From a virus, in IMG/VR virus record IMGVR_UViG_3300028666_000375, positions 1 through 26,376 of that record: a stretch of DNA of 26,376 nt; one strand, 5' to 3'. The notes under the pieces were generated by a model. That model was given only the letters and a program-made list of their open reading frames with translations, was not told where the DNA came from and searched no databases. Each line of letters starts with the position of its first letter. Within the stretch, counting starts at the first letter, position 1. The position numbers and the translations under genes were made by a program. This document shows positions 10,081 to 26,182 of this stretch, one piece after another.

Positions 10081-10369
10081 CTAAAACTTTCATACGGTTA
10101 GCTATATACCATTTACCGCCTTGGGCAATGGGTCTATTAATTTCCACATAATCCTCAATTTCAACCTTAACCCAAATCCTACCAGTCATAGATAAATGAG
10201 GAGCTTTTGGTTGGGCGGTTGTGTGCCAGCCTTTACGTGGAGCAAATCCTTTTGTTTCGTGTAATTCAGCCTGATACCATACATTACGTTTCAATCTTAA
10301 TTTTTTGTTAATAAATAATGGGGCAATATCACCATTTTTGAGCAATCTAAAAAGCTTATAAGCAATCAT
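10070..10369 (-). CDS. Small conserved phage-type protein of unknown function
   Basis: A 99-residue basic protein: MIAYKLFRLLKNGDIAPLFI, then KGFAPRKGWHTTAQPKAPHL, then GRIWVKVEIEDYVEINRP and GGKWYIANRMKVLDE. From memory, sequences with this LFIN...GWH...APHL...W..VEI layout recur in phages as uncharacterised proteins; I cannot name a family. It overlaps the start of the exonuclease half of the polymerase by 11 bases, suggesting coupled expression with replication genes. Confidence 0.8.
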   Translation of the reverse strand: MIAYKLFRLLKNGDIAPLFINKKLRLKRNVWYQAELHETKGFAPRKGWHTTAQPKAPHLSMTGRIWVKVEIEDYVEINRPIAQGGKWYIANRMKVLDEN

Positions 10370-10372
10370 GTA

Positions 10373-10723
10373 TTAAACAACCTTATCTACGGTAAACTGA
10401 ATAATGCTTGCTTCAATTACTTCTGAAAGTTTAATGTTTGGATTTTCTTTTGAAAGTTCAGCAAATACAGTAGTTATAACCTTGCGGGCATCATCCTCAC
10501 TCATGTATCTTACAAGGCGTTCGAGATACGGTTTATATACTTCTCTTGGGAGAAAATCGCTAACAGGGTCATCAGAAGCACACTCTGAATTAGCATAGGC
10601 TTTTGTAGCGGTAGTATTAATTAGAGGTTGATTTGAATATTTTGCTGCTTGTGCCTTATTAAATGCTGTCTGTGGCTTAAACACTACTTCTGATTGATCT
10701 TTCATAAACGGAATTCTTGCCAT
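10373..10723 (-). CDS. Protein of unknown function
   Basis: A 116-residue protein with a clear ATG and AGGAG about eight bases upstream, one of the better ribosome binding sites in the block. The first ~55 residues are polar and probably disordered, and the rest looks helical (REVYKPYLERLVRYMSEDDA, then KVITTVFAELSKENP). No motif is recognised. It follows the ligase after a 44-base gap, so it may begin a new transcript. Confidence 0.75.
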   Translation of the reverse strand: MARIPFMKDQSEVVFKPQTAFNKAQAAKYSNQPLINTTATKAYANSECASDDPVSDFLPREVYKPYLERLVRYMSEDDARKVITTVFAELSKENPNIKLSEVIEASIIQFTVDKVV

Positions 10724-10767
10724 ATTTTTACTCCTGATATATAGTATCGTATTAATATATATTAAAA
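10724..10767 (-). promoter_or_regulatory. AT-rich gap with 14-base palindrome and AGGAG site
   Basis: One of the few real gaps in the - strand operon. It contains the perfect palindrome TTAATATATATTAA (10752-10765) just after the ligase stop, then a strong AGGAG for the next gene. The palindrome could be a protein-binding operator or part of a promoter read by the phage sigma factor. No convincing -35 element is visible, so promoter activity is speculative. Confidence 0.3.
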
Positions 10768-11688
10768 TTAGTCCATATCGTCATCTGCGCGAAGTCCAAG
10801 CCATACTGGATGCCTTGGCTTATCTTTAACACCAACAGCAAAATACTTATATTTGAAAATAGAGTTCAGATATTTAGCTTGGTTATCCCAGATTTCTCTT
10901 CTCATTTCGTCGTTCAACCCAGAGCCAACACGAAGTTCTACACCTGTATATATATCAACTGCTACAATAGTTCCTAATGTTCCCTTACCAACCATGTCAT
11001 CTTTCTTTGAGGTCTTTTCTTTAAGCCCCAAAGCGTTTATAGTTGAAGCAGCGGTGTTCTCCATAAGCTCTTCAAAACCTGTAATTCTGGCTTCGCTATC
11101 ACTAAACCTCTTTAATTTCAATAGATAGCCTTCTTTATTTGTGCTTCTACCGAGTTTATACGGCCCACTATCAGACCTAATAATAATACCTTCAAATCCC
11201 TTATTCAAACATTCTTCTTCAAAATCTAGTAGTTCTTGTTTATTATTAAGTTTTTTAGGAAGCAGTTTAACAATACGCGGATCGTTAAACGTTATGCTTT
11301 CTAATAGTTCCATACGTTTTTCATAAGAAACTGTCAAATCGTCTTCAATTACATCAAAGATATAATAGATAAACTCTGGCTGACCATCAAATGACATAAT
11401 ATTGTGTGTAGATTCCTGAAAATTGAAATCTTTACTTGACACAATCTCGCCATCGAACTCTCCGGAAAAAATTTCAGAGTTTTTCGAAGCCAAACACAAA
11501 CTCTTTTCTAACTCGTTGCGGATGTATGTGTTAGGTATCTTTTTCAGTTTCCTACTTTTCACTAATTTATCCAAAAACAAGCAGCGAATACCGTCAAGTT
11601 TCGGTGTGCCATATACTGGATATTTAATGTTGTCAGTATCTTCTGGACTTAACGTGGCAGCTAACATGGGTCTTGTAATTTTACTCAT
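10768..11688 (-). CDS. ATP-dependent DNA ligase
   Basis: A 306-residue protein, close to the size of T7-type ligases. Motif I is TPKLDGIR with the nucleotidylated lysine K30, motif III region GEFDGEIV (76-83), motif IV EGIIIRS (166-172) and motif V LLKLKRF (189-195). The C-terminal part (EARITGFEELM, then GTLGTIVAVDIYTGVELRVG, ending PRHPVWLGLR) is an OB-fold like that of phage ligases. It seals nicks during phage replication or recombination. The start has GAGG about ten bases upstream, provided by the EV codons of the preceding array gene. Confidence 0.95.
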   Translation of the reverse strand: MSKITRPMLAATLSPEDTDNIKYPVYGTPKLDGIRCLFLDKLVKSRKLKKIPNTYIRNELEKSLCLASKNSEIFSGEFDGEIVSSKDFNFQESTHNIMSFDGQPEFIYYIFDVIEDDLTVSYEKRMELLESITFNDPRIVKLLPKKLNNKQELLDFEEECLNKGFEGIIIRSDSGPYKLGRSTNKEGYLLKLKRFSDSEARITGFEELMENTAASTINALGLKEKTSKKDDMVGKGTLGTIVAVDIYTGVELRVGSGLNDEMRREIWDNQAKYLNSIFKYKYFAVGVKDKPRHPVWLGLRADDDMD

Positions 11689-11690
11689 TT

Positions 11691-11948
11691 TTATTTTACC
11701 TCTATGATTTCAAATAGTTCTTGATGATATTTTAAGTAAATTGGTGTGTTACTATCTAAATATATTAAATAAGCACAGTTTAATATACTCTCACAATCTA
11801 TGCGTGATGTAGTTTCTAATATATCACCATAGAAATAACTTATATGTTTATCATATTCAGAAAAAGGAAAGGTTTGTTTATTACTATGTCTGTTGGTAAT
11901 ATATAAATACGTCCCATTTTCTATACATAATATCCTGTATTTACTCAT
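11691..11948 (-). CDS. Array-family small protein (YRILCIENGTYLY)
   Basis: An 85-residue protein starting MSKYRILCIENGTYLYITN and ending LFEIIEVK. It is the last gene of the second array, and its GAG GTA codons provide the ribosome binding site for DNA ligase. The middle is acidic and Tyr-rich (SEYDKHISYFYGDIL). Its ATGAGTAA start overlaps the upstream stop by eight bases. Confidence 0.87.
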   Translation of the reverse strand: MSKYRILCIENGTYLYITNRHSNKQTFPFSEYDKHISYFYGDILETTSRIDCESILNCAYLIYLDSNTPIYLKYHQELFEIIEVK

Positions 11949-12192
11949 CAGGGACCTCTATTATCTCAAATAATATTGGATTTTGTGTCATATTAAGTCT
12001 AATTCCATTTCCTAAAAACAAATATTCATGACGCATTTCGTTTATTACTTTTTGTATCATACTAACATGTGGTCTTTCAAATATTTTAAACTCGTTTCTA
12101 CTGCACTTAACTTCCCAACCTGTATAAAGAAAACTGCCATGTAAGCTTTCATATAAATATTCACCAGTCTCAATTATAAGTACTCTATACAT
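11941..12192 (-). CDS. Array-family small protein (YRVLIIETGEYLY)
   Basis: An 83-residue protein, MYRVLIIETGEYLYESLHGS at the start and LFEIIEVPDE at the end. The PDE tail is the out-of-frame reading of the next gene's ATG AGT AA. The middle (GWEVKCSRNEFKIFERPHVS) resembles paralogs that place a short 'F-K-I-F/Y-E' strand halfway through. The start overlaps the upstream stop by one base. Confidence 0.88.
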   Translation of the reverse strand: MYRVLIIETGEYLYESLHGSFLYTGWEVKCSRNEFKIFERPHVSMIQKVINEMRHEYLFLGNGIRLNMTQNPILFEIIEVPDE

Positions 12193-12470
12193 TAAGGAAC
12201 CTCTACAACTTCAAATATAGCAAGGTTATCTTTCATATGTATTACAGTATACGAGTCATTAAACGGAATGCGTATAGTATTTTCGTTTCTAATATTTCTT
12301 GCTAAAAATATTTCAGCACGTTCTTTTGACTGAACTTCATAGATATTATACACAGTAAAATCAGCATGTTCCAGCTCTAATTTAGAAAATAGGCTTGCGA
12401 ACTCATCTAAACCATATCTGCTGTATAAATATTCCCCAGTTTCTATACATAATATCCTGTAGTTACTCAT
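12192..12470 (-). CDS. Array-family small protein (YRILCIETGEYLYSRYG)
   Basis: A 92-residue protein. Its start (MSNYRILCIETGEYLYSR) and middle (LELEHADFTVYNIYEVQSKE) closely parallel the paralog at 13590-13874 (SVTELADADFLIYKVFETSS), and both share an NTIRIP stretch near the C-terminus. The two are therefore a recognisable duplicated pair within the array. It ends in IFEVVEVP. Confidence 0.88.
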   Translation of the reverse strand: MSNYRILCIETGEYLYSRYGLDEFASLFSKLELEHADFTVYNIYEVQSKERAEIFLARNIRNENTIRIPFNDSYTVIHMKDNLAIFEVVEVP

Positions 12471-12720
12471 ATGAAACCTTTATTATCTCAAACGCAGCGA
12501 GATTTTCAGTGCGAAAGTCTGCGTAACCGTTTCCACAACTTATTAGATAACCACAACGCAAGTAGTCTAAAGCGTCTTTACTACTATCAAATAGTCTAAT
12601 TTTTATTTCAATTTTTTCTTTATCTACATTTTCTAATTCATAACAGGAATACGGAGCAATTCCATTCATGCTATAAAGAAAATCACCACTCTCAATAAAT
12701 ACTATGCCCCATTTACTCAT
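12463..12720 (-). CDS. Array-family small protein (WGIVFIESGDFLY)
   Basis: An 85-residue protein starting MSKWGIVFIESGDFLYSMNG and ending AFEIIKVSYE. Here the usual EV is KV, so the ribosome binding site for the next gene is weaker (AAGGTTT rather than GAGGTT). The SYE tail is again the reading of the next ATG AGT AA in another frame. The middle has an EIKIRLFDSSKDALDYL stretch. Confidence 0.85.
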   Translation of the reverse strand: MSKWGIVFIESGDFLYSMNGIAPYSCYELENVDKEKIEIKIRLFDSSKDALDYLRCGYLISCGNGYADFRTENLAAFEIIKVSYE

Positions 12721-12730
12721 CAGGAACCTC
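12712..12730. repeat. Junction repeat, copy 1 (TTTACTCATCAGGAACCTC)
   Basis: A 19-base element joining two array genes. On the - strand it encodes EVPDE and the stop of one gene, the GAGG ribosome binding site, and the ATG AGT AAA of the next. Identical copies lie at 13155-13173 and 13866-13884, and near-copies at 13333-13351, 11941-11958 and 14059-14074. Confidence 0.8.
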
Positions 12731-12910
12731 TATTATTTCAAATTTTTCTTTGTTTTCTTTGAGAACAATACTGACAATTTCGTTATTATAATCATAGTAA
12801 TTAAACACTCATTTAGCCGGACTATCTTCATCAAAATATTTTTCTAATTCACTTCTATATTTTTTATAATCTACATATATTCCTTCTTCGATGTACAATA
12901 ATTTATACAT
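12713..12910 (-). pseudogene. Array-family gene interrupted by an in-frame TGA
   Basis: Reading from the ATG at 12910 gives MYKLLYIEEGIYVDYKK, then a TGA at codon 34 (12809-12811), and the same frame then continues VFNYYDYNNEIVSIVLKENK and ends KFEIIEVPDE at the normal junction. The start has GAGG upstream and the flanking junctions are intact. The simplest reading is a nonsense mutation in a 65-residue paralog (for example from TGG, giving AKW). Readthrough is possible but TGA is used as a normal stop elsewhere in the window. A sequencing error would give the same picture. Confidence 0.8.
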
Positions 12911-13163
12911 CCGGAACCTCTACAAGTTCAAAAAGTTCAGGATTTTTTCCAACACATATCCAACCGTAAATGCTACGTATGGAGTTTCTTATACCATGTT
13001 CTTCAAATCTTATCAAAATATTTTCTTTACTATCTTCATATATAGGAAAGTCTGATTTATCGGAAGCATTTACAATCTCTAATTCTGAATATATTTGTTC
13101 TTTATCTATATCTGTATGTAAAAATTCTCCAAATTCTATATAAAGTATTCTATATTTACTCAT
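12903..13163 (-). CDS. Array-family small protein (YRILYIEFGEFLH)
   Basis: An 86-residue acidic protein starting MSKYRILYIEFGEFLHTDID and ending LFELVEVPDV. The PDV tail comes from reading the next gene's ATG TAT AA (the broken paralog) in the other frame. The middle has SDFPIYEDSKENILIRFEE, a pattern of short strand then helix seen in several paralogs. Confidence 0.88.
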   Translation of the reverse strand: MSKYRILYIEFGEFLHTDIDKEQIYSELEIVNASDKSDFPIYEDSKENILIRFEEHGIRNSIRSIYGWICVGKNPELFELVEVPDV

Positions 13164-13173
13164 CAGGAACCTC
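13155..13173. repeat. Junction repeat, copy 2
   Basis: An exact 19-base copy of the junction element at 12712-12730, at the boundary between two array genes. The shared bases cover the C-terminal codons, the ribosome binding site and the next start. Confidence 0.8.
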
Positions 13174-13341
13174 TACTATTTCGAACCTTATTCTATTTTC
13201 TTTGAACATTATAAGCTCATTATTTTTCCAAAAACACCATCCATTATCTTTTGAAAAGAGTTCTTCTAAATGTTCTTTTGTAGTATATCTTGTTTTTATA
13301 TATTCGCCATCTTCTATGAACAATAATTTATATTTACTCAT
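13156..13341 (-). CDS. Array-family small protein, shortest intact member
   Basis: Started at the ATG at 13341 (ATG AGT AAA, with GGGG about six bases upstream) this is 61 residues: MSKYKLLFIEDGEYIKTRYT, a short middle (LFSKDNGWCFWKNNELIMFK) and RFEIVEVPDE. The open frame extends four codons upstream, but those belong to the previous gene's tail. It is the smallest intact paralog and so gives a view of the minimal fold: N-terminal signature, one helix or hairpin, C-terminal strand. Its middle resembles the broken paralog just downstream. Confidence 0.85.
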   Translation of the reverse strand: MSKYKLLFIEDGEYIKTRYTTKEHLEELFSKDNGWCFWKNNELIMFKENRIRFEIVEVPDE

Positions 13342-13597
13342 CAGGAACCCCAACTATCTCAAAGATTTCTGGGAATTGCAGTCTATCTATTTTTTTATCT
13401 GAAAATAATCTATATTGTTGGTCGCCATGCTCTACCCGTTTATAAGCTATTTTAATATCATTTGTTTCGTATATTTTACAGCTTTCTTTGTCAATTCCAT
13501 AAAAGCCTATCTCGTATGGAGAATATAAAGATCCCATATTTTTTCGTTCAAGCAAAAATTCACCAGTCTCAATTATAAGTATCCTGTATTTACTCAT
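13334..13597 (-). CDS. Array-family small protein (YRILIIETGEFLLERK)
   Basis: Started at the ATG at 13597 rather than the upstream TTG-type frame at 13618, since all neighbours use ATG AGT AAA at this junction. The 87-residue product starts MSKYRILIIETGEFLLERKN and ends IFEIVGVPDE. The usual EV is GV (GGGGTT), which still leaves a G-rich ribosome binding site for the next gene. The middle contains SPYEIGFYGIDKESCKIYET, similar in layout to the paralog at 12463-12720. Confidence 0.86.
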   Translation of the reverse strand: MSKYRILIIETGEFLLERKNMGSLYSPYEIGFYGIDKESCKIYETNDIKIAYKRVEHGDQQYRLFSDKKIDRLQFPEIFEIVGVPDE

Positions 13598-13874
13598 CTG
13601 AAATCTCCACAATTTCAAATATACTGAGGTTATTTTTAATTAAGATAACCTCATGCTTATTACCATTTGGAATGCGTATTGTATTACATTGTGTTGCGTT
13701 ATTGTTGAAATACATAGTAGCCTCGTATTTGGAAGACGTTTCAAATACTTTATATATAAGAAAATCAGCATCGGCTAACTCTGTAACTGAATACAAGAAA
13801 GGAAATCGCGACCCTCCTTCTCTGCTATATAAGTAATCACCAGTTTCTACACAAAGTATTCTATATTTACTCAT
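13590..13874 (-). CDS. Array-family small protein (YRILCVETGDYLYSREG)
   Basis: Started at the ATG at 13874, giving 94 residues: MSKYRILCVETGDYLYSREG, a middle with LADADFLIYKVFETSSKYEA and NTIRIPNGNKHEVILIKNN, and the end IFEIVEISDE. It is clearly related along its whole length to the gene at 12192-12470. The ISDE tail overlaps the next start. GAGG precedes its own ATG inside the upstream gene's EVPDE codons. Confidence 0.88.
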   Translation of the reverse strand: MSKYRILCVETGDYLYSREGGSRFPFLYSVTELADADFLIYKVFETSSKYEATMYFNNNATQCNTIRIPNGNKHEVILIKNNLSIFEIVEISDE

Positions 13875-13884
13875 CAGGAACCTC
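13866..13884. repeat. Junction repeat, copy 3
   Basis: The third exact copy of the 19-base junction element, again at a stop/start overlap between array genes. Three identical copies within about 1.2 kb, in genes whose middles differ, point to recombination or strong constraint at the seam. Confidence 0.8.
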
Positions 13885-14064
13885 AACTATCTCAAATAAA
13901 TATGGATATTCTTCATAATAAAAAGACTTGGCGCACTGTCTTTTAACACCATATCTATTTTTTAATCTTTCTAACAAATCTTCCAAGTTATCTCTTTCAA
14001 GTATCTTAAATCCTTCGTTTAAGTATCTTCCTTTCTCTATGAACAATACTCTATATTTACTCAT
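13867..14064 (-). CDS. Array-family small protein (YRVLFIEKGRYLNEG)
   Basis: Started at the ATG at 14064, giving 65 residues; the upstream nine codons are the tail of the preceding gene read in another frame. It begins MSKYRVLFIEKGRYLNEGFK and ends LFEIVEVPDE. The middle is basic (LERDNLEDLLERLKNRYGVK) and helical, in contrast to its acidic neighbours. Confidence 0.86.
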   Translation of the reverse strand: MSKYRVLFIEKGRYLNEGFKILERDNLEDLLERLKNRYGVKRQCAKSFYYEEYPYLFEIVEVPDE

Positions 14065-14296
14065 CAGAAACCTCCGCCTCTTGTATTTCAAAAGAAGCTC
14101 TGTCTTTTATACAAAAGTATGTATTTCCATTAATTATAACATGATATCTTTCAGACATACTGTTATTGGCATCATATGTAAAATACCTGTCTATATCTTC
14201 CTGGTAAAAAAGTAATGGTGTAATAGATCTGTCAGTTTCACATACATAACAACCTTCATCTATAAGAAGAAGTTTGTATCGCTTTTGTTTAATCAT
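14057..14296 (-). CDS. Array-family small protein (YKLLLIDEGCYVCE)
   Basis: A 79-residue protein starting MIKQKRYKLLLIDEGCYVCE and ending SFEIQEAEVSDE. GAGG, formed by the IED codons of the preceding gene, lies seven bases before the ATG. The C-terminal signature is followed by a repeated EAEV before the SDE tail. Two Cys in the signature region are unusual for the family. Confidence 0.86.
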   Translation of the reverse strand: MIKQKRYKLLLIDEGCYVCETDRSITPLLFYQEDIDRYFTYDANNSMSERYHVIINGNTYFCIKDRASFEIQEAEVSDE

Positions 14297-14298
14297 AG

Positions 14299-14613
14299 CT
14301 AATCCTCTATATTTAACAGAGCATTATAACATTGAATAAATACATTGTACATATCATATATAGAAATATACCCAATAAACATATTCTTATAATAGATTTC
14401 AAGTATCTCTTCATCTTCTTCGACAGTCTTAAATTTAATGAGACTGTTAGATAGATTATTAAGATTGAACTTTAATTCTTTATCGTAAAATCCAATGAAA
14501 CTTTTTGGTAATCCTTTATTGGTAATTGGAATAATAAAATCAGAACATAGACAAATAGCTGGTCTGCCATTATCAAGTTCAGTATAACTAACTGACATTA
14601 GTTCGTGCGACAT
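14299..14613 (-). CDS. Unrelated small protein inside the array
   Basis: A 104-residue protein lacking the N-terminal signature: MSHELMSVSYTELDNGRPAI, then a mainly beta-like body with LGYISIYDMYNVFIQ-like hydrophobic stretches near the end. It ends LLNIED, and its final GAG GAT codons still serve as ribosome binding site for the next array gene. It shows that the array accepts unrelated genes provided they end in the same junction. No family recognised. Confidence 0.75.
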   Translation of the reverse strand: MSHELMSVSYTELDNGRPAICLCSDFIIPITNKGLPKSFIGFYDKELKFNLNNLSNSLIKFKTVEEDEEILEIYYKNMFIGYISIYDMYNVFIQCYNALLNIED

Positions 14614-21050: not shown

Positions 21051-21296
21051 TTAAACTTCTACTATTTCAAACAATTCTCTATTATTTTTTAGAAATATAA
21101 GCTTACCGTTTATACCAACATTGAAATCATATTCGTCATGAAATATGTATTCAACTTCTTTTTTCGAGGACCATTCTGCTGGTACAAAGCTATTTTTATC
21201 TGACGATGCCACAACTTCCTCTGGTGAAAACAATGAACCACCAACATGACTTCTTAAAGCGTATTCTCCTGTTTCAATAATAAGTATTCTGTACAT
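21051..21296 (-). CDS. Array-family small protein (YRILIIETGEYALRSH)
   Basis: An 81-residue protein starting MYRILIIETGEYALRSHVGG and ending LFEIVEV. The start codon directly follows the upstream stop and has GGAGG six bases before it. The middle (ASSDKNSFVPAEWSSKKEVE) has the strand-then-helix layout SSKxE seen in several paralogs (AEFSSKEKILNIF at 21537-21788). Confidence 0.88.
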   Translation of the reverse strand: MYRILIIETGEYALRSHVGGSLFSPEEVVASSDKNSFVPAEWSSKKEVEYIFHDEYDFNVGINGKLIFLKNNRELFEIVEV

Positions 21297-21533
21297 TTAA
21301 ACCTCCACAATACAGAACAATTTATTATTTTCTTTTCCTAATCGTATTTGTTCTGTACGTCCTCTGTTAATTACTCTATTTCCATTAAAAATATTTGAAG
21401 CTTTCCCTATATTATGGTATTCAACTACTGAACACGGAAAATAGCGTTCAAATTCTTCTGAAAATAAAAATAAATTGCCATGACAATCTTTATATAAATA
21501 CTCTCCGCTTGGTATGTGAAGTATTCTAAACAT
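21297..21533 (-). CDS. Array-family small protein (FRILHIPSGEYLYKD)
   Basis: A 78-residue protein starting MFRILHIPSGEYLYKDCHGN and ending KLFCIVEV, where the usual E of FEIVEV is Cys. The middle has FSEEFERYFPCSVVEYHNIG, like the FSFEEI stretch in the two following paralogs upstream, so 21297-22040 looks like a run of tandem duplicates. Ribosome binding site GAGG comes from the EV codons of the preceding gene. Confidence 0.87.
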   Translation of the reverse strand: MFRILHIPSGEYLYKDCHGNLFLFSEEFERYFPCSVVEYHNIGKASNIFNGNRVINRGRTEQIRLGKENNKLFCIVEV

Positions 21534-21536
21534 ACT

Positions 21537-21788
21537 CTATACCTCAACTATTTCAAATAATGGTAAAATATCAGAGGTTAGCGCTGTATTTTCTCCGCAG
21601 ATATACACGGCATGACAGTCTGAATTATAAAATATGTTAAGTATTTTTTCTTTTGATGAAAATTCAGCTATTTTAAACACGGTTTCCTCATATTTTATTA
21701 TTTCTTCAAAAGAAAATAATTGATAATTAAAGTTAGGCTCCATATAGTATAAATACTCTCCGCTTTCTATGTGAAGTATTCTATACAT
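21537..21788 (-). CDS. Array-family small protein (YRILHIESGEYLYYME)
   Basis: An 83-residue protein, MYRILHIESGEYLYYMEPNF at the start, LFEIVEV at the end. It is the closest relative of the next gene upstream: both share an FSFEEI motif, an F-x-I-A-x-F stretch, a helix ending F (NIFYN or RLFQQG), an A/E-V-(Y/W)-I-x-G-x-N-T stretch, and D-x-L-x-LFEI. Pairs like this show duplication followed by divergence in the middle. Confidence 0.9.
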   Translation of the reverse strand: MYRILHIESGEYLYYMEPNFNYQLFSFEEIIKYEETVFKIAEFSSKEKILNIFYNSDCHAVYICGENTALTSDILPLFEIVEV

Positions 21789-21791
21789 ATA

Positions 21792-22040
21792 CTATACCTC
21801 AATAATTTCAAATAAATGTAAAGTATCCATGGATAGTTTAGTATTTGTTCCTTGTATCCATACCTCTTGTGTATTTCCTTGTTGAAAAAGTCTAACTATA
21901 TCTTCAATAACATCAAACCCGGCAATACAAAAACTTTGTAATGGATGTCGTGGTATTTCTTCGAAAGAATACAACAACATTGGACACACTTCTGTTGTAT
22001 ATAACCATTCGCCAGTCTCTATAAGAAGTATCCTATACAT
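21792..22040 (-). CDS. Array-family small protein (YRILLIETGEWLY)
   Basis: An 82-residue protein starting MYRILLIETGEWLYTTEVCP and ending LHLFEIIEV. It aligns along its full length with the gene at 21537-21788 (SFEEIPRHPLQSFCIAGFDV against SFEEIIKYEETVFKIAEFSS; VWIQGTNTKL against VYICGENTAL). The spacing to the next start is three bases with GAGG in the EV codons. Confidence 0.9.
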   Translation of the reverse strand: MYRILLIETGEWLYTTEVCPMLLYSFEEIPRHPLQSFCIAGFDVIEDIVRLFQQGNTQEVWIQGTNTKLSMDTLHLFEIIEV

Positions 22041-22043
22041 ATA

Positions 22044-22373
22044 TTATACCTCAATAATTTCAAATTCGTTTCTATTAAATTTTCTTTCTGAATTACCAAA
22101 CCAGCTTTCATTTAGTGTAGGTATATAAACATCACGTAAAAAAGTAATAGCTGATACTTTATCTTTAAAATATATAGCATCTTTTTTTAGTGTAAAATCG
22201 CGTCTATCTATACCAACATCTGCCAATACTCGAAGACTTACTGTTAATAACCAATGATAACCGGCTATATTTGGATAAAAATAATCATATACTATTTGAC
22301 AGGTACTACTATATATATAAGTTCCTGTCTCTATATGGAGAATAACATACTTTTTCTTTTTTGGTTTAGTCAT
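22044..22373 (-). CDS. Array-family protein (YVILHIETGTYIYSS)
   Basis: Started at the ATG at 22373 (ATG ACT AAA, overlapping the upstream GAC TAA stop), giving 109 residues; the open frame to 22385 begins at a TTG in the upstream gene's tail. A short basic leader MTKPKKKK precedes YVILHIETGTYIYSS, and the end is NEFEIIEV. The middle has VDYFYPNIAGYHWLLTV-like aromatic content and RDFTLKKDAIYFKDKVSAIT. Confidence 0.86.
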   Translation of the reverse strand: MTKPKKKKYVILHIETGTYIYSSTCQIVYDYFYPNIAGYHWLLTVSLRVLADVGIDRRDFTLKKDAIYFKDKVSAITFLRDVYIPTLNESWFGNSERKFNRNEFEIIEV

Positions 22374-22629
22374 CTTCAATCTCAACTATTTCAAATAAAT
22401 AATGATATTCAGAAATACTATATCCTACTCCATTTATTATGACTGGCCAAGTAGTATGAAATAAAAAATTAGTAGCTTCATTTACATTAGTAAACTTAAT
22501 AGGTAATCTACCAATCATATTACCGCATAGTTCTTCTGGCGTGAACGGTGAGTAACGCTTATCTCCTTGACAAGTATAAATATAGTCACCAGTTTCAGCA
22601 CATCGTATAGTATACTTTTTGTTAGTCAT
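22366..22629 (-). CDS. Array-family small protein (YTIRCAETGDYIYTCQG)
   Basis: Started at the ATG at 22629, giving 87 residues. It begins MTNKKYTIRCAETGDYIYTC and ends LFEIVEIEDD. The EDD tail is the out-of-frame reading of the next gene's ATG ACT AA. Its own start uses the same trick against the metallophosphoesterase tail (FEDD). FTPEELCGNM in the middle parallels the S-F/P-E-E-(L/I) element of neighbours. Confidence 0.87.
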   Translation of the reverse strand: MTNKKYTIRCAETGDYIYTCQGDKRYSPFTPEELCGNMIGRLPIKFTNVNEATNFLFHTTWPVIINGVGYSISEYHYLFEIVEIEDD

Positions 22630-23311: not shown

Positions 23312-23561
23312 TTACTCCCCTTTCGACAATTTCAAAAGTTTCATTAGATATAATCAATTCTGCGTCACATTCTGGATTTTTTTCATAATAGTTTAGTATA
23401 TACTCTAATAATATGTTCATTTCTCTTTTAGTTCCAGTAAGCCTTAAGTTTTTAACGCGTGGGTCATACCATCCATAAAATCCGCTTATTTTATTGTTTT
23501 CAATAACAAAATAAACATACACACTCTCTGGTATATATAATAATGAATACTTTTTATACAT
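23283..23561 (-). CDS. Array-family protein with C-terminal extension (YSLLYIPESVYVYF)
   Basis: A 92-residue protein starting MYKKYSLLYIPESVYVYFVI; the usual TGE is ESV. FEIVE is followed by RGVNDCIENSLC, because its frame runs 29 bases into the metallophosphoesterase gene. GGAG for its own start lies seven bases before the ATG in the VEY codons of the preceding gene. Function unknown. Confidence 0.84.
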   Translation of the reverse strand: MYKKYSLLYIPESVYVYFVIENNKISGFYGWYDPRVKNLRLTGTKREMNILLEYILNYYEKNPECDAELIISNETFEIVERGVNDCIENSLC

Positions 23562-23766
23562 GACTATACTCCACTATTTCAAATTCATAAGTTTCATTAC
23601 AAAAATTACGTGGTATAAAATTCAATAATTCTTCTATTTCTTCTTTATTACTCTCTATTTTATATCCAGGTTTATTGACGTATACAGTAGAACAATCAAA
23701 ATTACGATAAGCATACCTATAAAACCAAACATATTCTCCTGTTGGTATATACAATAATCTATACAT
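23554..23766 (-). CDS. Array-family small protein (YRLLYIPTGEYVWFY)
   Basis: A 70-residue, aromatic-rich protein starting MYRLLYIPTGEYVWFYRYAY and ending YEFEIVEYSHV. The middle (KPGYKIESNKEEIEELLNFI) aligns with the next gene downstream (NLRLTGTKREMNILLEYIL), both having a strand then an N/T-K-x-E-x-x-x-L-L helix, so the two form a duplicated pair. Confidence 0.87.
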   Translation of the reverse strand: MYRLLYIPTGEYVWFYRYAYRNFDCSTVYVNKPGYKIESNKEEIEELLNFIPRNFCNETYEFEIVEYSHV

Positions 23767-24073: not shown

Positions 24074-24327
24074 TATTTAACCTTTATTAGTAAAAATTCA
24101 TTTTTAGATGTTTCAATCTTAATATCTTTAAATCCGGTATCTATATATACTTTATTTTCTTTTCTAACGCTTAAATATCTAAATATACTCCAAATATACC
24201 CATTAAATGTTGCTATTCTATCTGTTAAAAAATATGCTGGTGTTAAATCCCAGCTATCCATGGATATTACGCAACTTCTATACACATATTTTCCAGTAGG
24301 TATATGAAGAATGGCATATTTATTCAT
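24073..24327 (-). CDS. Array-family small protein (YAILHIPTGKYVYRS)
   Basis: An 84-residue protein starting MNKYAILHIPTGKYVYRSCV and ending NEFLLIKVK, a weak form of the C-terminal strand. Its ATG AAT AA start gives the NE stop of the upstream gene. The middle is Tyr/Trp-rich (TFNGYIWSIFRYLSVRKENK). The KV codons (AAA GTT) leave a poor ribosome binding site for the next gene. Confidence 0.86.
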   Translation of the reverse strand: MNKYAILHIPTGKYVYRSCVISMDSWDLTPAYFLTDRIATFNGYIWSIFRYLSVRKENKVYIDTGFKDIKIETSKNEFLLIKVK

Positions 24328-24622
24328 TTGTAATCTCTATTAGTTCAAATTCAGATTTCCACGCTTCTGTTATTTCTCTCATATTAACTGTAATATCTAT
24401 GTATTTAACCTTATAGCAATTTATAAAACTATCTTCTATCTGATATTTAGACCATTTAGAAGTGTCCTCGTTGTTTAAATAATATAAACAAGATTTATTA
24501 TCAATATTTTGAATACCAGAAACATATAATCCAGTAGGTATATGTAAAATCCTATACATCGCTCGGTATCTTACGTAAGTTCCTGTTGGTATATGAAGTA
24601 GTTTATAGTGTTTATCGTTCAT
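24320..24622 (-). CDS. Array-family protein with two N-terminal signatures in tandem
   Basis: A 100-residue protein that begins with HYKLLHIPTGTYVRYRA (5-21) and then at residue 22 repeats the module as MYRILHIPTGLYVSG before a normal middle and the end SEFELIEITNE. The first copy resembles the start of the gene at 25211-25432 (LLHIPTGTYV) also in DNA. The second ATG (24559) lacks a clear ribosome binding site, so the fusion is probably translated as one chain. It looks like the product of recombination between conserved 5' modules, with the body of one gene deleted. Confidence 0.87.
   Translation of the reverse strand: MNDKHYKLLHIPTGTYVRYRAMYRILHIPTGLYVSGIQNIDNKSCLYYLNNEDTSKWSKYQIEDSFINCYKVKYIDITVNMREITEAWKSEFELIEITNE
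24579..24600. repeat. 5' module repeat shared with 25398-25419
   Basis: Twenty-two bases containing CCTGTTGGTATATGAAGTA that encode LLHIPTGT on the - strand, identical at 25398-25419. The two copies lie in the first half of the tandem-signature gene and at the start of the first array gene. Confidence 0.75.
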
Positions 24623-24873
24623 ACTTTAACCTCTATGATTTCAAACTCAACATAATTCATAGCTGTTAGTATATCACTATTACCAAATATATCGCGGTTA
24701 ACTCTATTCTCTCTGACAGCAAATGTATAACCTTTTGGAAAAATTTTATCTAATGTTTGTTTAGGGTAGTTAGCCGGATAATCTGATAAATATCTATAAT
24801 AACTACCATCAAGTTCTACAACGGTGTGTAAATATAGTCCAGTTGGTATATGAAGTATTTTATATTTAATCAT
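24619..24873 (-). CDS. Array-family small protein (YKILHIPTGLYLHTV)
   Basis: An 84-residue protein starting MIKYKILHIPTGLYLHTVVE and ending VEFEIIEVKV. Start and upstream stop overlap as ATGA, with GAGG in the preceding EV codons. The middle includes RYLSDYPANYPKQTLDKIFP and a FAVRENRVNRDIFG loop. Function unknown. Confidence 0.88.
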   Translation of the reverse strand: MIKYKILHIPTGLYLHTVVELDGSYYRYLSDYPANYPKQTLDKIFPKGYTFAVRENRVNRDIFGNSDILTAMNYVEFEIIEVKV

Positions 24874-25214
24874 ACTTCAACCTCTATAATTTCAAATTCA
24901 GCAATTAGTAACGTTTCGTATCTTTTATCATCATCTTCCGTCACGTTTTGTATTAAGAAATCAATAAACGAATAATACCACTCATCCACATATTCAGGAT
25001 CATTATATAATGTTTCACCGACAAGTTTATGACATATAGCTTCTTTTTCTGAATCTAAACAGTTACCATCCTCATTAAATATAGGAGTGGTTAAGTAATT
25101 TTCCATTACAATTTCAAACTCTTTTTTAAACTTATCTAATGTAACGTTATCTTTAAGTTCGTCTGTAATAAAATATTCACCTGATAATAAATGAAGTATT
25201 TTATATTTACTCAT
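24870..25214 (-). CDS. Array-family protein (YKILHLLSGEYFITDE)
   Basis: A 114-residue, strongly acidic protein starting MSKYKILHLLSGEYFITDEL and ending AEFEIIEVEV with a TGA stop inside the next ATG (ATGA). The middle is largely helical and acidic (DNVTLDKFKKEFEIVMENYL, ICHKLVGETLYNDPEYVDEW). HLLSGE links it to HLLTGE in the gene at 2458-2883. The ribosome binding site GAGGA comes from VRI codons of the upstream gene. Confidence 0.87.
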   Translation of the reverse strand: MSKYKILHLLSGEYFITDELKDNVTLDKFKKEFEIVMENYLTTPIFNEDGNCLDSEKEAICHKLVGETLYNDPEYVDEWYYSFIDFLIQNVTEDDDKRYETLLIAEFEIIEVEV

Positions 25215-25432
25215 GTAGAAATCCTCACTGGTTCAAATTCACATCTATTTAGTTTACGTTGATGTTTTATTTTTTCATTTCTAAAATATGCTTTTATTTC
25301 TTTTAAAGAACCGAATATTTTTGGAGTTTCTTTTACGATACTTTCTCCCCAAACAGTCCATACATCTTTGCCATTCACATATATACTTGAAACATAGGTT
25401 CCTGTTGGTATATGAAGTAACTGGTATCTCAT
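25211..25432 (-). CDS. Array-family small protein, first of the first array
   Basis: A 73-residue protein starting MRYQLLHIPTGTYVSSIYVN and ending CEFEPVRIST. As in the gene at 15166-15582 the end has VRI instead of VEV, but GTG AGG ATT keeps GAGGA as ribosome binding site for the next gene. AAGGGAA precedes its own ATG, immediately after a terminator hairpin, so there is no visible promoter of its own. Confidence 0.86.
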   Translation of the reverse strand: MRYQLLHIPTGTYVSSIYVNGKDVWTVWGESIVKETPKIFGSLKEIKAYFRNEKIKHQRKLNRCEFEPVRIST

Positions 25433-25501: not shown

Positions 25502-26182
25502 TTATGCCTTAATTGTGACTGTCATATGAGTATAACGGTCAGTATCAGCATTGTAATGAAGACCAAGATTATGGTAACTTGTATGGAAAAGAGTTACGAA
25601 ATTGTTAGCGATGTTTGCTGGAACCGAAGTACCGTAAAAAGCGTAGTCCCTAATACTTCGTGTAGAAGCTCCAACATGCTTAGCAATTTCAACCAAGGTC
25701 ATTTCAGAGCTGTAAATCTTATTAGCCAGAAGAACGTTGTAGGTCTTGCTGGCAGTACGAGCGGTAACGGTTTCCTTCATCTTCTTCATGGAAGTCTTTG
25801 AAACTGATACGATAGTGTTCTTGGTTGCCATTGAATTCTCCTTCGATATTTGTAGATTGGCGAGTAGTAATTTTTCATCCCCGGAGGAATACAAAATTGG
25901 TTTATTAATTACTTTGGCTGTAAAATTAGAACTTAAAAGAGAATCCACAGATGTATTTAGCAGTTTCGACAATTTGAATAGCCAATAAGTATCTGGGAAA
26001 ACAGTTCCTTCGAGCCATTGTGTAATTTCAGTGGATATAATAATTCCGGAACCCATTCCAGACAATTTTATAGCCAAAGAAGTTGGAGTATACTTTAATT
26101 CTGTCATTATTTTTTGTAAATTAGAAACCAAATTAGTTTCAACTTCTGTGAAAGACTCTGGTAATTGAACAGTATTAGTCAA
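25502..26182 (-). CDS. Two-part helix-turn-helix regulator with possible internal start
   Basis: A 226-residue frame starting at TTG, inside the upstream gene's last codons (GAC TAA in TTG ACT AA). Residues ~18-85 look like an XRE-type helix-turn-helix (NLQKIMTELKYTPTSLAIKL, TEITQWLEGTVFPDTYWLFK, LSKLLNTSVDSLL). Residues ~160-200 contain a second one (MTLVEIAKHVGASTRSIRDY). Residue 118 is an ATG with a near-perfect AGGAG six bases before it, so the C-terminal half (25502-25831, 109 residues) is probably also, or mainly, made on its own. Likely a transcriptional regulator; targets unknown. Confidence 0.75.
   Translation of the reverse strand: MTNTVQLPESFTEVETNLVSNLQKIMTELKYTPTSLAIKLSGMGSGIIISTEITQWLEGTVFPDTYWLFKLSKLLNTSVDSLLSSNFTAKVINKPILYSSGDEKLLLANLQISKENSMATKNTIVSVSKTSMKKMKETVTARTASKTYNVLLANKIYSSEMTLVEIAKHVGASTRSIRDYAFYGTSVPANIANNFVTLFHTSYHNLGLHYNADTDRYTHMTVTIKA
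25838..25842 (-). promoter_or_regulatory. Strong internal ribosome binding site (AGGAG)
   Basis: AGGAG lies six bases before an in-frame ATG (25829-25831) within the helix-turn-helix gene. It is stronger than the site at the TTG start of the long frame and suggests a separate 109-residue product starting MATKNTIVSVSKTSMKKMKE. Confidence 0.7.

Follow-up and report, generated by a model that had tools for sequence, protein, structure and literature searches.

We analyzed a 26,376-base virus record, IMGVR_UViG_3300028666_000375 (hereafter the window; coordinates prefixed w are window positions), in which arrays of small genes were joined head to tail by a repeated type of junction, here called a seam. 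The array genes belonged to one previously unnamed family, in which a variable middle separates the motif xYxILHIPTGxY at the N-terminus from FEIVEV at the C-terminus. A second IMG/VR contig (3300031251_000400) was 100% identical to the window across 18,441 bases and added 17.5 kb upstream; the 43.8-kb union of the two is referred to as U. A relative phage was represented by four contigs (3300029913_000937, 3300029986_000716, 3300037243_000135, and 3300029915_000034), two of which were merged for comparison (C2). Compared with the phage studied here, identity was 57% for the helicase and about 64% for the ligase. The gene set of the genome included a DnaB-like helicase, an ATP-dependent ligase, a family A DNA polymerase, a sigma factor, and a metallophosphoesterase, and in the relative a baseplate wedge protein was encoded on the opposite strand.

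A profile of the small-gene family found 54 members in U, covering 32% of the DNA, and 55 members in C2 (33%); the structural half of the relative's contig contained no members. The family extended over w2458-25432, was also present on contig L006, and was known from two phage species only. Its islands sat between core genes that were syntenic in both phages, in the same places and with different gene numbers. For example, the interval between a conserved open reading frame (ORF) of 104 amino acids and the DNA ligase held nine family genes and one broken copy in U and three family genes in C2. The arrays grew and shrank by whole genes between these core genes.

Named databases contained no clear relative of the family. 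There was no match between the window and named phages by Megablast, nor between one family member and named phages by tblastn up to an E value of 5, and scans of genome contigs with the ligase and with a family member found none. IMG/VR scans with the seam, the start pattern and the ligase returned only the same five contigs; a broader family-motif pattern additionally returned two large contigs with one motif each, and a helicase scan additionally returned remote helicases at about 25% identity. For the family, PHROGs gave chance-level matches only and Pfam gave no match above chance level. Two confident AlphaFold models (pLDDT 92-93) had no significant PDB or viral match. A likeness to beta-trefoil proteins, which weak PDB matches of the first model suggested together with a profile search, was not used as evidence.

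Spacing of the array junctions

In the range w11941-14091, nine junctions, checked from the sequence and the gene calls, overlapped by exactly 8 nucleotides (nt; ATGNNTAA/TAG), two of them flanking the broken gene (Table 1). According to a preliminary description of this DNA, the start of each next gene supplies the stop codon of the upstream gene out of frame, and this overlap was indeed present at every junction named there, including those after the ends FEDD (the metallophosphoesterase), IEDD, SHV, PDV, and ITNE. The range that had been given for these junctions also contained one with a 1-nt overlap (w12192), and the IEDD, FEDD, SHV, and ITNE junctions as well as a second PDV junction (w23759) were located outside it.

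The observation was confirmed as real and far beyond chance. A spacing of exactly -8 occurred in 44 of the 90 junctions between family genes from both phages (44 of about 88 close ones) and in 7 of the 93 other junctions of the same two genomes. When the same gene-calling script was applied to 75 unrelated phage loci, 19 of 388 close junctions (4.9%) had this spacing. The family excess over the unrelated loci corresponded to a Fisher p of about 1e-22, a value to be read with the fact that junction counts were not independent, as the arrays expanded by duplication. It was highly improbable that the overlaps were an artefact imposed by the reader or the gene caller, with the true starts located elsewhere. 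The starts were predicted, and the script placed no penalty on overlaps up to 8 nt. However, in dozens of paralogues the conserved N-terminal motif began at these very ATGs, and each had a Shine-Dalgarno core at a suitable distance; moreover, the same caller produced few such overlaps in the unrelated phages.

Roughly half of this phage's family junctions had other spacings (-4, -1, and 0 to +4), and the interval from -8 to +4 held 79 of the 90 family junctions. Neighbouring junctions had equal spacing in 36 of 73 cases, as compared with 19 +/- 2.9 after shuffling, and such uniformity was also observed within arrays with spacings of -4, +2, and +3. Among five orthologous adjacent junctions (between two array genes or at the metallophosphoesterase end), the spacing was the same in one and different in four; for instance, the metallophosphoesterase orthologue in the relative ended in FED with a +3 spacing. 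Since neighbours shared their spacing but orthologous junctions mostly differed, the seams appeared to be copied together with the gene unit and to drift between lineages. Several seam types are equivalent, the -8 overlap being one of them.

Stop and start signals at the seams

The second and third codons of the next gene (ATG NNT AAA or AGA) formed the out-of-frame stop. In seams of the MSK and MTK types (ATGASTAA), both non-start frames were closed, one by TGA and the other by TAA; among the 45 family starts that had a -8 junction, 33 were of this kind. A stop of the NNTAA type also followed the ATG in 27 of the 64 family genes that lacked a -8 junction upstream; the corresponding figures were 8 of 70 for non-family genes and 5% for background ATGs. 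The stop was therefore in part inherent to the protein start, since it was present at starts that did not use it. In contig L006 (10586-11036), a downstream start lacked the out-of-frame stop (ATGTGGATA), so that the upstream gene read on and the overlap reached 41 nt; the preceding gene there had a GTG-start seam.

The seam left open the frame that is in phase with the ATG. At w24320-24622, a single ORF had one family N-terminus following another (YKLLHIPTGTYV...MYRILHIPTGLYV), suggestive of a deletion that joined two genes, and this ORF looks like a result of the open in-phase frame. The earlier proposal that a frame entering the junction in the right phase is terminated applied to both non-start frames of the MSK and MTK seams and not to the frame of the ATG. 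The same proposal regarded the seam as a universal joint, evolved for plugging in genes, whose out-of-frame stop could render the insertion or replacement of any gene harmless, and we considered this quite unlikely. The closure of two frames was in its favour, as were the broken gene, which retained both of its seams, and two non-family genes that were joined by the same seam phrase, namely the metallophosphoesterase at its end and a 373-amino-acid ORF of the relative (MTKFKIF..., C2 15104). On the other hand, the position of the stop varied freely across arrays and orthologous junctions, and the ATG-phase frame was not stopped, w24320-24622 being such a fused ORF. Moreover, in these phages we saw no unrelated gene that had been inserted with its breakpoints exactly at a seam.

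The last codons of the array genes carried a second signal. Among Glu codons located 7-15 nt before the next ATG, GAG was used in 40 of 44 cases in U and in 32 of 42 cases in C2, as compared with GAG shares of 21% and 24%, respectively, among Glu codons elsewhere in the family. Similarly, the conserved Glu of the FExx motif was encoded by GAG in 27 of 29 genes where 8-14 nt separated it from the next ATG, as compared with 17 of 56 where the distance was longer. In MTK seams the FExx Glu itself was at the right distance (TTT GAG GTA ATA TAT GAC TAA), and in MSK seams it was the following Glu (GAG GTT CCT GAT GAG TAA); in both, GAGG formed a Shine-Dalgarno core about 10 nt before the next ATG. 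Since the choice of GAG tracked the distance to the next ATG, selection apparently maintains a Shine-Dalgarno core within the final codons of each gene.

This codon choice bears on the possibility that the seams are a plain by-product of conserved protein ends (M[STY][KR]... at the start, ...EVPDE/EVIYD at the end) and duplication, where only ordinary homology is at work and the stop is incidental. We found this explanation possible, if doubtful. It was consistent with the frequent NNTAA-type stops at family genes without a -8 junction and with the homogeneous spacing within arrays. However, GAG followed the distance to the next ATG and not the residue, which argued that the seam was selected as a signal, and the exact duplication described below broke inside a seam. 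A role of the seam as a terminator or promoter was rejected because the counts over w11600-14400 were not above chance: there were 14 promoter-like sites as compared with 19.1 in shuffles, and one terminator-like site as compared with 0.6. There was also no match in Rfam.

In sequence terms, the end of an upstream gene carries the Shine-Dalgarno core for the next gene, whose codons 2-3 in turn supply the upstream stop, and a ribosome finishing one gene may restart on the next (termination-reinitiation).

Duplication at the seams and layout of the region

Gene gain at the seams, as the preliminary description had anticipated, was found in the relative. In its contig G005, a 217-bp one-gene unit was exactly duplicated in tandem (10360-10815), and both breakpoints were inside a 22-bp seam (GAGATAATATATGACTAAAATA) that was present three times in a row. 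The two copies occurred in three contigs. This was the only exact duplication, and such events were too few for a rate. A second sharp identity edge was observed at -13, with 95% identity across 81 bp. Among DNA repeats touching the arrays of both phages, 186 of 203 spanned a gene start in both copies, where 25-33% were expected, and all eight repeats containing a complete gene began at most about 50 nt before one start and ended at most about 50 nt past another. Pairwise identity was highest from -15 to +30 around the starts and dropped to about 0.3 in the gene cores.

Taken together, the seam was probably a compact element for translational coupling that recurs along arrays of tandemly duplicated small genes, with the seams serving as joints for the gain and loss of whole genes. 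The coupling was most likely of the ordinary kind, with the repeated seams providing the homology through which whole genes are duplicated and lost. Because array genes share their ends, each junction would serve as a short direct repeat. Recombination between any two of them would add or remove exactly one gene without disturbing either frame, the stop, or the ribosome-binding site. The 8-nt overlap would be copied along with the gene unit and might help the units to stay neat, and it would not be the cause of modularity. Two points weighed against this reading. The exact duplication was a single event, and its neighbours also shared the seam sequence for functional reasons. In addition, co-inheritance of the gene ends gave a mixed picture: in this phage the 3' end of a gene and the 5' end of the next one were correlated at r 0.24 (matrix correlation), as compared with 0.17-0.20 for the two ends of one gene; in the relative the corresponding values were 0.09 across the junction and 0.19-0.24 within the gene.

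It was unlikely that the seams were a selected reusable joint, that is, a coding repeat of about 22-60 bp comprising the Shine-Dalgarno sequence, the start, and the two-frame stop, which would allow continual gain, loss, and reshuffling of a large variable small-protein family in the manner of a cassette array without a dedicated recombinase. With respect to the plug-in seam, the earlier interpretation was partly supported. The whole-gene repeats ran from seam to seam as it implied. That the borrowed stop is what makes insertion harmless was not supported, as the -4, +2, and +3 arrays were repeated likewise and the spacing differed at most orthologous junctions. It is the shared seam sequence, not the borrowed stop, that makes gene gain harmless.

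Table 1. Seams, arrays, and related features of the window (ends are given as the upstream residues before the stop / first residues of the next gene)
Feature	Position (w)	Strand	Ends	Basis or remark
8-nt overlap seam	14057..14064	-	VSDE / MSK (TGATGAGTAA)	sequence + gene calls
8-nt overlap seam	13867..13874	-	PDE / MSK	sequence + gene calls
8-nt overlap seam	13590..13597	-	ISDE / MSK	sequence + gene calls
8-nt overlap seam	13334..13341	-	PDE / MSK	sequence + gene calls
8-nt overlap seam	13156..13163	-	PDE / MSK	sequence + gene calls
8-nt overlap seam, entry to broken gene	12903..12910	-	PDV / MYK	sequence + gene calls
Broken family gene, in-frame TGA 12809-12811, both seams intact	12713..12910	-		
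8-nt overlap seam, end of broken gene	12713..12720	-	PDE / MSK	sequence + gene calls
8-nt overlap seam	12463..12470	-	SYE / MSN	sequence + gene calls
In-range exception, 1-nt overlap (TAATG)	12192..12192	-	EVP / MYR	sequence + gene calls
8-nt overlap seam	11941..11948	-	PDE / MSK	sequence + gene calls
8-nt overlap seam	22366..22373	-	IEDD / MTK	outside noted range
8-nt overlap seam, metallophosphoesterase	22622..22629	-	FEDD / MTN	outside noted range
8-nt overlap seam	23554..23561	-	SHV / MYK	outside noted range
8-nt overlap seam, stop TAG	23759..23766	-	PDV / MYR	outside noted range
8-nt overlap seam	24320..24327	-	ITNE / MNK	outside noted range
8-nt overlap, two non-family genes	26175..26182	-	ISID / TTG start	
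Array with non-overlap repeated seam (GAGGTATAATATATGTATAGG type), +3 at three junctions, 0 at one	21051..22040	-		
Array, three genes joined by -4 (ATGA) seams	24619..25432	-		
Array, nine family genes + one broken copy	11691..14296	-		between conserved 104-aa ORF 14299-14613 and DNA ligase 10768-11688

In the array with -4 seams, the third gene also joined the next ORF (24320-24622) through a -4 seam. Elsewhere in the window, the family A DNA polymerase was split into two genes (w8257-10080 and w3163-4458) about 3.8 kb apart, with a methyltransferase-like gene, the sigma factor, and family genes between the two; the relative had the same split. A protein encoded at w20048-20743 contained repeats of the type ELQ.YA..KGGKLLS...W.C..GH.W...WCP.C, and several copies were present in the relative's contig G007. 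The locations of these repeat proteins differed between the two phages, and they are possibly homing or zinc-ribbon proteins.

Comparison with known systems

Reinitiation has been linked to gene spacings from -8 to +6 (PMC10666635). It has been reported that reinitiation can need no more than the final 15 nt of the upstream gene and that the -8 overlap (ATGNNTGA) is the third commonest in prokaryotes (Huber et al., PMC6728339 2019 / PMC10666635 2023). Like termination-reinitiation pairs, the array genes were on the same strand with most spacings in this interval, and the Shine-Dalgarno sequence was inside the upstream gene, as indicated by the distance-dependent use of GAG. Unlike such pairs, -8 with TAA or TAG was the main class here, and a near-identical phrase was repeated through arrays of paralogues.

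Short conserved border sequences have long been proposed as joints of phage mosaicism and have rarely been seen. Here, about 55 paralogues per 43 kb shared one border phrase, and an exact gene duplication was caught in the act. The arrays are thus a good system to ask whether coupling signals in coding ends double as recombination joints. Moreover, the family fills one third of the sequenced early region without a Pfam match or a solved relative.

The nearest precedents are boundary-sequence recombination, start-associated sequences (SAS), and promoter-early-stem-loops (PeSL), and the latter two each have a defining feature that the seams lack. According to a paper that cites them (PMC4503421), the PeSL of T4-like phages are repeated promoter-terminator elements at gene borders that were proposed to let genes shuffle. 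As so described, they resemble the seams in being repeated elements at gene borders and differ in that the array had neither promoters nor terminators above shuffles and most of its junctions were without intergenic DNA. In Cluster K mycobacteriophages, SAS is a repeated sequence with a Shine-Dalgarno core that precedes many small non-structural genes and sometimes includes the upstream stop (PMC3203893). The seams were similar in placing a short repeated sequence with such a core ahead of many small genes. Unlike SAS, which is found at genes from different phamilies, they belonged mostly to one family and were coding in both genes, and the 13-bp SAS consensus GGGATAGGAGCCC had no match in the window with up to two mismatches allowed.

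As for boundary-sequence recombination, gene 68 of Island3, a Cluster I mycobacteriophage, was gained or lost via repeats of about 50 bp that encode the C-terminus of its neighbours (PMC3029335). The arrays likewise had a short border sequence shared between divergent flanks, and in the one exact duplication the breakpoints were within it. In both systems, the gain or loss of a whole gene is ascribed to recombination between repeats at gene ends. Unlike the single case of Island3, a whole region was built here of such repeats, which also held the start signal and the overlap.

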